From the NCBI RefSeq assembly GCF_003226535.1, contig NZ_QKOB01000001.1, positions 186,001 through 250,000 of the forward strand: 64,000 nucleotides of DNA, in the 5' to 3' direction. The translations under genes were made by a program, and so were the position numbers. Within the stretch, counting starts at the first letter, position 1, and each line of letters begins with the position of its first letter. Of this stretch, positions 49,223 to 51,359 are shown one piece after another. The notes beneath the pieces were generated by a model, which saw nothing but the letters and a program-made list of their open reading frames with translations, made no database searches and was not told the origin of the DNA. This DNA comes from Meiothermus sp. Pnk-1 (GTDB lineage Bacteria; Deinococcota; Deinococci; Deinococcales; Thermaceae).

Positions 49223-51181
49223 CTACTTCTTTTCCCTGACCCGCTTTTGCATCTCCTCGATTAGCTCCTCCAGCTTTAGCGTTCGCTGCTCTTTTACCTG
49301 CCGTTCGCGCAGGTTTACCGTGCCCTGTTCCTGCTCCTTGTCGCCCACTACCAGAATGAGGGGAATTTTCTGAAGTTCGGCGTCGCGGATCTTGGCGTTC
49401 ATGCGCTCCGGGCGGTCGTCCACCTCTACGCGCAGCTTGGCCGCCTGCATAGCCTGGGCGATCCGTCGGGCGTATTCTAGGTGCCGGTCGGCGATGGGGA
49501 CGATCACGGCCTGGATGGGGGAGAGCCACAGGGGGAAGTTTCCGGCGGTGTGCTCGAGGTAGAAGGCAAAAAACCGGTCGAAGGAGCCCATGATGGCCCG
49601 GTGGATGATGACCGGGGTCTCTTTTTCACCCTTCTCGTTGGTGAACTCCAGGCCGAAGCGCCTGCCGCTGATGAAGTCGAGCTGGTTGGTGGCGATGGAT
49701 TCCTCTTTGCCCAGCACGGTGCGAAGCTGCACGTCGAGCTTGGGTCCGTAGAAGGTGGCCTCGCCGATGCCCTCGACGTACTGGGCGCCGGTCTCCTCCA
49801 GCGCTGAGCGGATGGCGGCGATGGCCTCGTCCCAGTGGGGGCCGGGCTCGCCGAACTTCTCGGGGTTGTTCTCGAAGTCGGGCAGGGAGAGGCGGAACCA
49901 GTAGTCGCGGAGGCCGAAGTCCTTGTAGACCTCGTCAAAAAGCCCGATCACCCGGATGAACTCCTCCTTGACCTGGGCCTTGGAGCAGTAGATGTGGGCG
50001 TCGTTCTGGGTGAAGCCGCGCACCCGCGAGAGCCCCGAGAGGGTGCCGGAGAGCTCGAAGCGGTAGACGGTGCCGAACTCGGCCAGGCGCAGGGGCAGGT
50101 CGCGGTAGCTTTTCGGCCGAGCCTTGTAGATCATGTGGTGGTGCGGGCAGTTCATGGGCTTGAGGTAGTATTCCTCGCCCTCGATCTCGATGGGAGCGTA
50201 CATGTCGTCTTTGTAGTAGGGGAGGTGCCCGGAGGTGTAGTAGAGCTTGGCGTTGGCGATGTGCGGGGTGATGACGTAGCGATAGCCGTGCTCCTGCTCC
50301 TTCTCGTACATGTACTGCTCGAGCTGCCGCCGGATGAAAGCCCCCTTGGGCAGCCATAGCGGTAGGCCCTTGCCCACTTCCTCGCTGATGGTGAAGAGCT
50401 CGAGCTCGGCCCCCAGCTTGCGGTGGTCGCGCTTCTTGGCCTCCTCTTGCCGCCATAGGTAGTCGTCGAGTTCTTCCTTGCTGCGGAAGGCGATGCCGTA
50501 GATGCGCTGGAGCATGGGACGCCTGGAATCGCCCCGCCAGTAAGCCCCGGCGATGTGGGTGAGCTTGAAGTAGGGCGGAATGCGGCCCGTGCTGGGAACG
50601 TGGGGCCCGCGGCAGAGGTCGGTGAAGCCGTGGGTTCCTTCGCCCTGGGCATAAAAGCTGATCTCTACCCCTTCCGGGAGGTCTTGAATCAGTTCGGTTT
50701 TGTAGGGATCTTTGCCCTCGAAGCGCCGCAGGGCTTCCTCGCGCGGCAGGACGAAGCGGCGCAGCTCGAGGTTCTCCTTCACGATACGGCGCATCCGCGC
50801 TTCGATCTCGGGCAGGTCGCCCTCGCCCAGCGGTTCTGGTGGGTCGATGTCGTAATAGAAGCCGTTTTCGATCACCGGCCCGATGGCCAGCTTTACCGCG
50901 TCGGGATCATAGCCCTTGGCGGCAAAAAACTCGCGCACGGCCTGGGCCAGCACGTGGGCCAGGGTGTGGCGGAAAAGCTGCTGGTATTCGGGGTCTTTCT
51001 CGGTGAGGAGCTTGAGCTTAGCCCCCTGAGGCAGGGGTTTCATCAAGTCGTACAGTTCGCCGTCCACGATCGCGCCGATGGCGGCCTTGGCCAGCCCAGG
51101 GCCGATCGCTTTGGCAGCCTCGGCGGCCGTTGCGCCATCCGGTAGGTTTAGTTCGCGTCCGTCGGGTAGGTAGACATTCAT
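49223..51181 (-). CDS. thrS: Threonyl-tRNA synthetase
   Basis: 652 residues: TGS domain (1-60), editing domain (about 65-225, with HTLAHVLAQAV and the metal-type CRGPHVPSTG), class II catalytic core (about 245-535, with MNCPHHHMIY and RGFTQNDAHIYC) and anticodon-binding domain. ATG 51181 has AGGAAGA 3 nt upstream. The 135-nt leader carries a promoter, a 13-codon leader ORF with two Thr codons and two competing hairpins, so expression is very likely controlled by transcription attenuation. Confidence 0.96.
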   Translation of the reverse strand: MNVYLPDGRELNLPDGATAAEAAKAIGPGLAKAAIGAIVDGELYDLMKPLPQGAKLKLLTEKDPEYQQLFRHTLAHVLAQAVREFFAAKGYDPDAVKLAIGPVIENGFYYDIDPPEPLGEGDLPEIEARMRRIVKENLELRRFVLPREEALRRFEGKDPYKTELIQDLPEGVEISFYAQGEGTHGFTDLCRGPHVPSTGRIPPYFKLTHIAGAYWRGDSRRPMLQRIYGIAFRSKEELDDYLWRQEEAKKRDHRKLGAELELFTISEEVGKGLPLWLPKGAFIRRQLEQYMYEKEQEHGYRYVITPHIANAKLYYTSGHLPYYKDDMYAPIEIEGEEYYLKPMNCPHHHMIYKARPKSYRDLPLRLAEFGTVYRFELSGTLSGLSRVRGFTQNDAHIYCSKAQVKEEFIRVIGLFDEVYKDFGLRDYWFRLSLPDFENNPEKFGEPGPHWDEAIAAIRSALEETGAQYVEGIGEATFYGPKLDVQLRTVLGKEESIATNQLDFISGRRFGLEFTNEKGEKETPVIIHRAIMGSFDRFFAFYLEHTAGNFPLWLSPIQAVIVPIADRHLEYARRIAQAMQAAKLRVEVDDRPERMNAKIRDAELQKIPLILVVGDKEQEQGTVNLRERQVKEQRTLKLEELIEEMQKRVREKK

Positions 51182-51223: not shown

Positions 51224-51260
51224 AAAAAAAGACCCGGCTCGTTTTACCACACGAGCCGGG
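51224..51260 (-). terminator. Attenuator terminator in the thrS leader
   Basis: On the minus strand CCCGGCTCG pairs with CGAGCCGGG around a 10-nt loop and is followed by TC and seven T. It lies before the thrS start, not after a gene, so it acts as an attenuator. The first five bases, CCCGG, are shared with the antiterminator hairpin. Confidence 0.88.
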
Positions 51261-51294
51261 AGAACCTCTAGCGAATCCCTAGAAGTTCCCCCGG
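51256..51294 (-). promoter_or_regulatory. Antiterminator hairpin in the thrS leader
   Basis: CCGGGGGAACTTCTAG pairs over 16 bp (two G-U pairs) with CTAGAGGTTCTCCCGG across a 7-nt loop. Its 3' arm includes the CCCGG that starts the terminator stem, so the two hairpins exclude each other. Confidence 0.75.
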
Positions 51295-51320
51295 GGTCTG
51301 GTAGTGACGGGCCAGATCAT
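51279..51320 (-). CDS. Putative thrS leader peptide
   Basis: Thirteen-codon ORF MIWPVTTRPRGNF with adjacent Thr codons ACT and ACC. The ATG lies 10 nt after the TACACT -10 box, so it would be translated from a nearly leaderless end. Its stop codon falls at the top of the antiterminator 5' arm. Translation is inferred from position only. Confidence 0.5.
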   Translation of the reverse strand: MIWPVTTRPRGNF

Positions 51321-51330
51321 CTTGTAGGTG

Positions 51331-51359
51331 AGTGTACTGCTAGGCCTCCCTAGCGTCAA
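51331..51359 (-). promoter_or_regulatory. Promoter of thrS
   Basis: TTGACG (51354-51359), 17-bp spacer, TACACT (51331-51336) on the minus strand, about 150 bp upstream of the thrS start. Confidence 0.8.

Follow-up and report, generated by a model that had tools for sequence, protein, structure and literature searches.

A conserved threonine leader peptide upstream of thrS in Meiothermus-type bacteria as a probable near-leaderless transcription attenuator

Introduction

In Escherichia coli, thrS is controlled by its own protein at a translational operator, and in Firmicutes the gene is controlled by a T-box. Leader-peptide attenuation is also known before synthetase genes, as at E. coli pheST. 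The closest described system to the locus examined here serves a biosynthetic gene: a leader-peptide attenuator reportedly operates at the hcs lysine cluster of Thermus thermophilus, and is said to have been described by Tsubouchi et al. in J Biol Chem in 2005.

Leader-peptide attenuators of synthetase genes have been described for trpS and leuS in Streptomyces (PMC1262725) and for hisS/hisZ in Bacillus (PMC2965389). Leaderless leader peptides also have precedents. The trpL peptide of Sinorhizobium meliloti is of this kind (PMC7298713), as are the mycobacterial uORFs that carry Cys sensor codons (PMC4633059; Canestrari 2020, as far as it is cited in PMC13236596).

In this study, we examine the region upstream of thrS in the window, by which we mean the whole 64,000-nucleotide stretch of DNA that was analysed, and compare it with the corresponding regions of relatives. 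Sequence comparison and folding models lead us to conclude that this leader very probably attenuates transcription by a ribosome-mediated mechanism that responds to the charging of tRNA-Thr.

Results

The gene presumably controlled is thrS, encoding a threonyl-tRNA synthetase of 652 aa (49223-51181, minus strand; NCBIfam TIGR00418, E = 2.9e-199), and all parts of its leader lie on the same strand. A sequence-only reading of this DNA had described a promoter, a short ORF with Thr at codons 6 and 7, and a 16-bp hairpin, and each of these is present. The promoter (51331-51359) consists of TTGACG at 51359-51354, a 17-nt spacer and TACACT at 51336-51331. Taken alone this match is weak, because a promoter scan returned 2 sites in 8 kb when 1.0 was expected from shuffles, but TTGAC is invariant and TA(C/G/A)ACT near-invariant among 21 aligned thrS leaders. 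The gap between the -10 box and the leader ATG is 10 nt (51321-51330) and varies only between 9 and 10 nt among the 21 leaders, which would leave a 5' untranslated region of about 3-5 nt.

The leader ORF (51279-51320) comprises 13 codons and a stop, from the ATG at 51320 to the TAG ending at 51279, and encodes MIWPVTTRPRGNF (codons ATG ATC TGG CCC GTC ACT ACC AGA CCC CGG GGG AAC TTC TAG; peptides are written here up to their stop). Its tandem Thr codons, ACT ACC (51300-51305), are the putative sensor, a role suggested by their conservation. Hairpin 1, the candidate antiterminator (51256-51294), pairs arms 51294-51279 and 51271-51256 over 16 bp around a 7-nt loop, and the leader stop codon forms the end of its 5' arm, as had been claimed; the position of the stop is conserved in 21 of 22 genomes. 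The intrinsic terminator (51224-51260) was likewise found where it had been placed, with a T-run at 51232-51224, although its stem (51260-51251/51242-51233, with an 8-nt loop) has 10 bp and not 9. Because the CCCGG at 51260-51256 belongs to both structures, hairpin 1 and the terminator exclude each other. This proposal of the sequence-only reading is borne out by the invariance of CCCGG in 21/21 leaders and agrees with folding. An interval of 42 nt lies between the T-run of the window leader and the thrS ATG.

The predicted fold of the leader is far more stable than expected, with -56.2 kcal/mol where shuffled sequences give -32.7 (z = -7.25). The Thr-Thr pair is not striking by itself, since a random 13-codon ORF would contain one with a probability of ~0.04. 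No T-box match was found, an Rfam scan of the window returned two tRNAs only and no family matching the thrS leader, and a search of a plasmid collection gave no DNA resembling it. The decisive evidence that the leader exceeds chance is, at the level of sequence, its conservation in 21 of 22 genomes.

A ThrRS gene was identified in each of the 50 Thermaceae genomes searched. Nearly every upstream region was then read; the exceptions are in Thermus, namely G034 and also G024, whose match started inside the gene and was uninformative. The whole arrangement of promoter, 9-10 nt gap, ORF, stop within hairpin 1, hairpin 1, terminator and T-run lies upstream of thrS in 21 of the 22 genomes of Allomeiothermus, Calidithermus and Meiothermus, a count of related genomes and not of independent events. 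Thus the short ORF and the hairpins, on whose conservation in close relatives the sequence-only reading had been staked, are kept. The ORF has 13 or 14 codons in these 21 leaders and always stops within the 5' arm of hairpin 1, with the stop codon switching between TAG and TAA. Codon 6 is Thr in 21/21 (ACT, ACC or ACG), and all 72 of the 72 differing pairs at this position are synonymous. At codon 7, which is Thr in 18/21 leaders, the synonymous share of differing pairs is 72 of 129, compared with 11% at the remaining codons. Such a pattern is what would be expected of selection on the Thr codons themselves, beyond any on RNA sequence. Three of the 21 leaders have a single Thr codon, and two from Calidithermus have gained one in-frame codon to give three.

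Hairpin 1 is paired in 98.4% of alignment cells, with three pairs changed on both sides, and pairing falls to 47-80% in a control in which the partner is slid by 1-3 columns. The terminator stem is 97% paired, and covariation sought there in the 21 leaders was not found; its absence is uninformative because the shared segment, which pairs with both neighbours, is invariant. An alignment that had been proposed to test for conserved Thr codons and compensation in both stems shows the former, and compensation in hairpin 1, while the terminator stem has no bearing on the matter. In many relatives the T-run is only ~9 nt from the thrS ATG. In one Meiothermus-type genome (G010, leader L103), loss of the ORF and hairpin 1 leaves the promoter and a terminator-like hairpin whose T-run abuts the thrS ATG. 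Thermus has no leader upstream of thrS, which begins a few bases after the -10 box; the leader was either lost in Thermus or never there.

The distance between the Thr codons and hairpin 1 is also conserved. Measured from the start of the first Thr codon to the invariant GGG of hairpin 1, it is 13 nt in 19/21 leaders; the other two have an extra upstream Thr codon at 16 nt and their next Thr codon at 13. Bacterial ribosomes cover ~13 nt from the first A-site base, as judged from E. coli toeprints. Folding ensembles were computed at 55 C for the RNA lying downstream of a ribosome, with medians taken over the 21 leaders; they describe equilibrium and ignore the kinetics of transcription. With no ribosome the terminator is blocked (median probability 0.00), and with a ribosome at the stop it always forms (1.00), in agreement with the earlier claim that a ribosome there would melt the first hairpin and allow termination. 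When the A site holds the first Thr codon and the footprint is 10-13 nt, hairpin 1 prevails at 0.62-0.70 against 0.31-0.40 for the terminator. When it is the second Thr codon that occupies the A site, hairpin 1 is favoured only at footprints of 10 nt or less, and the terminator is otherwise free.

In these models, then, a stall permits the antiterminator and a ribosome at the stop codon prevents it, provided that the stall is at the first Thr codon and the footprint no larger than 13 nt. The proposal that slowing at Thr codons would favour read-through holds for the first codon over this range but for the second only at footprints of 10 nt or less, and for this reason the sensor position is probably the first of the two. 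The sequence-only reading had seen the tight geometry as an objection. The Thr codon does lie near the base of the hairpin, but this argues for attenuation and not against it, since the 13-nt spacing approximates the reach of the ribosome and hairpin 1 outcompetes the terminator there. A classical trp-type 1:2 protector or pause hairpin, which is typical of the class and not required, is not conserved (mean z -0.6). As a candidate, a 1:2 hairpin around the Thr codons was convincing in the Meiothermus core and in leader L086 and absent or weak elsewhere. Pairing of the 5' end with the 3' arm of the terminator, which appears in the minimum free energy fold of the window leader, was rejected as unsupported by any conserved column-pair helix in the alignment.

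A covariance model built from the 21 thrS leaders was searched across Thermaceae. It recognised one further site, with E from 5e-9 to 5e-4, in 27 of 28 genomes of the Thermus type (genera g4 and g5). All of the sites read precede homocitrate synthase and encode MLAREKKLGRRGVG or a near variant, with Lys-Lys; we take this to be the reported hcs attenuator of T. thermophilus. The same model found, in the window's genome, a leader encoding MWGRRDDNS, with Asp-Asp-Asn, before a gene for aspartate--tRNA(Asn) ligase (aspS, NCBIfam; contig C3, 411101-411220, minus strand) and, in Calidithermus (L186, L189), a leader encoding MFASSRKPMQREVG before a gene for a LysJ/ArgD-like aminotransferase.

A plain pattern of promoter, spacing and ATG was scanned in the window's genome and in one Meiothermus genome, giving 14 and 13 sites against 0 and 2 for a reversed control. 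At 11 of these sites the repeated codons of the peptide match the downstream gene. Matches in both genomes precede thrS, aspS and a homocitrate-synthase-like gene; a match before trpB, with Trp codons (RWWCW), occurs on contig C6 of the window's genome. Those in Meiothermus include asd (MVWYTTTTS), pheS (MAGGWFFS), ilvB, with branched-chain codons, and the gene for DAHP synthase, with Phe, Tyr and Trp codons. The window's genome thus has at least six leaders of the near-leaderless type: besides thrS, these precede asd (three Thr), aspS (Asp-Asp-Asn), pheS (Phe-Phe), the homocitrate-synthase-like gene (Lys-Lys) and trpB (Trp). A simple codon model puts the joint chance of the six at ~3e-17, a value that shows only that chance is no serious alternative, because the motifs were picked after the fact.

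For aspS, pheS and asd, counts come from a gene-based search combined over two screens. Leaders with Asp/Asn codons precede aspS in 21 of the 22 genomes of Allomeiothermus, Calidithermus and Meiothermus, and in 8/8 Thermus loci read, where the codons encode NN or ND and there is no T-run, which suggests that the mechanism there may be translational. Phe-Phe leaders precede pheS in 20/21 genomes, and leaders reading MVWY and then 3-5 Thr precede asd in at least 18 of 22. The two hairpins of the asd leader have no visible overlap, and a competing fold is not evident there. Among asd leaders the number of Thr codons differs between species with the frame kept. In most of the Meiothermus clade, pheS leaders end in WFF plus one residue (e.g. 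MRGRWFFR), and in many the downstream hairpins lack a clean T-run.

Short Thr-containing ORFs also lie upstream of thrS in many genomes of four other families, as seen in a set of 111 genomes that was identical for searches at class and at phylum level, with none recognisable as Deinococcaceae. Before their stops these ORFs read TTRTPRGV (family f3), TTTR, with a terminator (f4), and TTRTL or TTRTRG (f2 and f5). In folding, a Marinithermus-like thrS leader with four Thr (L140) switches as the Meiothermus leaders do. Oceanithermus-like leaders (L141-L145) have a peptide of the form MA..ATTTR, with a conserved Thr run, and a terminator; folding of these five gave no structure excluding the terminator. 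In two families of the class, thrS leader ORFs end in TRTPRGV or in RTRR or TTRTRG, with a recurrent CGA-ACN codon pair that could be a peptide or RNA motif.

Discussion

Sequence comparison shows which parts the thrS leader has, that they are conserved, that the hairpins exclude each other and how the Thr codons are spaced from hairpin 1; where transcription starts, that the leader is translated and how it responds to threonine are inferred. RNA polymerase would begin 3-5 nt before the leader ATG. A ribosome would load on the nearly leaderless 5' end in the absence of a Shine-Dalgarno (SD) site. When Thr-tRNA is plentiful, the ribosome would pass the Thr codons and reach the stop in the 5' arm of hairpin 1, which would block this hairpin, leave CCCGG free and let the terminator form, ending transcription before thrS. 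When Thr-tRNA is scarce, the ribosome would wait, its A site at the first Thr codon and its leading edge just touching the base of hairpin 1. Hairpin 1 could then form and take CCCGG, transcription would not terminate, and thrS would be made. As ribosome-free RNA reads through in the folding model, termination would need active translation of the peptide.

Other explanations of the leader account for less than attenuation by Thr-tRNA does. ThrS binding, which the sequence-only reading had allowed for as the signal, would be autogenous control in which ThrRS recognises a tRNA-Thr mimic in the leader and either favours termination or blocks translation. Control of this kind operates at the E. 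coli thrS operator, and the terminator loop of the window, GUGGUAAA, holds U-GGU-A as does the anticodon loop of tRNA-Thr(GGU). The GGU loop is not conserved, however: relatives have UAGUUGAAG, GUAGAAUG or GCGGUUAAA, and L095 has no loop. The terminator loop was rejected as an anticodon-loop mimic because of these differences, and no conserved mimic of the tRNA-Thr anticodon arm was found among the 21 leaders, in which the terminator and hairpin 1 loops both vary. Binding by ThrRS would, moreover, leave unexplained the in-frame Thr codons, the stop and the near-leaderless start, as well as the similar build of leaders that precede other genes and carry codons for other amino acids, and we consider it highly improbable.

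An action of the short ORF mainly on thrS translation, by SD access or re-initiation, with the hairpin and its T-run incidental, is unlikely too. The ~9 nt between T-run and thrS ATG in many relatives would suit it, as would the pheS leaders and Thermus aspS leaders without a clean T-run, but the window has 42 nt in this interval, the competing hairpin sequesters an arm of the terminator and not the SD, and the T-run and CCCGG, for which such a mechanism has no use, are conserved in 21 leaders. The leader might instead be a site of nascent-peptide arrest or a general sensor of translation rate, with read-through not set by Thr-tRNA specifically. Folding predicts read-through whenever the ribosome has not reached codon 7, which means that poor initiation would also raise thrS, and TTR or TRT motifs recur in distant families; yet the peptide is free to vary outside its Thr codons, as the 11% of synonymous pairs elsewhere indicates, and the conserved codons of other leaders match the gene served, so that this explanation has very little to recommend it.

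On balance, we lean towards the view that near-leaderless peptides constitute genome-wide attenuation in Meiothermus-type bacteria and the main amino-acid-specific control of thrS, aspS and pheS and of asd, homocitrate synthase, trpB, ilvB and DAHP synthase. The non-discriminating AspRS would be served through Asp/Asn codons, and leaders left untranslated would read through, termination needing rapid loading of ribosomes at the 5' end. The leaders before aspS (for Asp-tRNA(Asn) ligase), pheS, asd, trpB and other genes suggest that near-leaderless peptides are a common sensor of tRNA charging. They make the coupling of near-leaderless translation to RNA polymerase at high temperature testable, and can help to annotate the amino acid that a gene serves.

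To our knowledge, the hcs leader is the only member of the near-leaderless set of this group to have been studied; a literature search returned nothing on its other leaders and no report of a thrS leader peptide, Thermus relatives included. The hcs leader of Thermus shares with the thrS leader the promoter spacing, an ATG 9-10 nt after the -10 box, the order of the hairpins, the length of the ORF (14 codons in hcs), tandem sensor codons at positions 6-7, a stop within hairpin 1 and a C-rich segment common with the terminator, and one profile recognises both. The difference is that hcs has Lys codons before a biosynthetic gene and the window has Thr codons before a synthetase gene. A leader peptide had been called unusual for a synthetase gene, and such leaders are uncommon, but pheST, trpS, leuS and hisS are precedents. 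These resemble the thrS leader in their upstream cognate codons, terminator and antiterminator, and differ from it in amino acid and phylum.

The near-leaderless start, which the sequence-only reading had regarded as new, is the rule in Thermaceae and is anticipated by S. meliloti trpL and the mycobacterial Cys uORFs, which likewise carry sensor codons and are translated from an AUG at the 5' end or close to it. The trpL transcript starts exactly at its AUG, whereas the window leader would have 3-5 nt before it, and the mycobacterial uORFs have no obvious terminator, unlike the window leader. The E. coli operator and the T-box of Firmicutes also control thrS; compared with these, the window leader is without a conserved tRNA-like operator and without a T-box match. 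A threonine leader peptide would therefore be a third solution for thrS control, besides the gene's own protein and the T-box, present here and probably across several Deinococcota families. Since synthetase leader peptides and near-leaderless starts both have precedents, the thrS leader, which by its sequence belongs to a conserved, family-wide near-leaderless set, adds a new case to a type of control that is already known.
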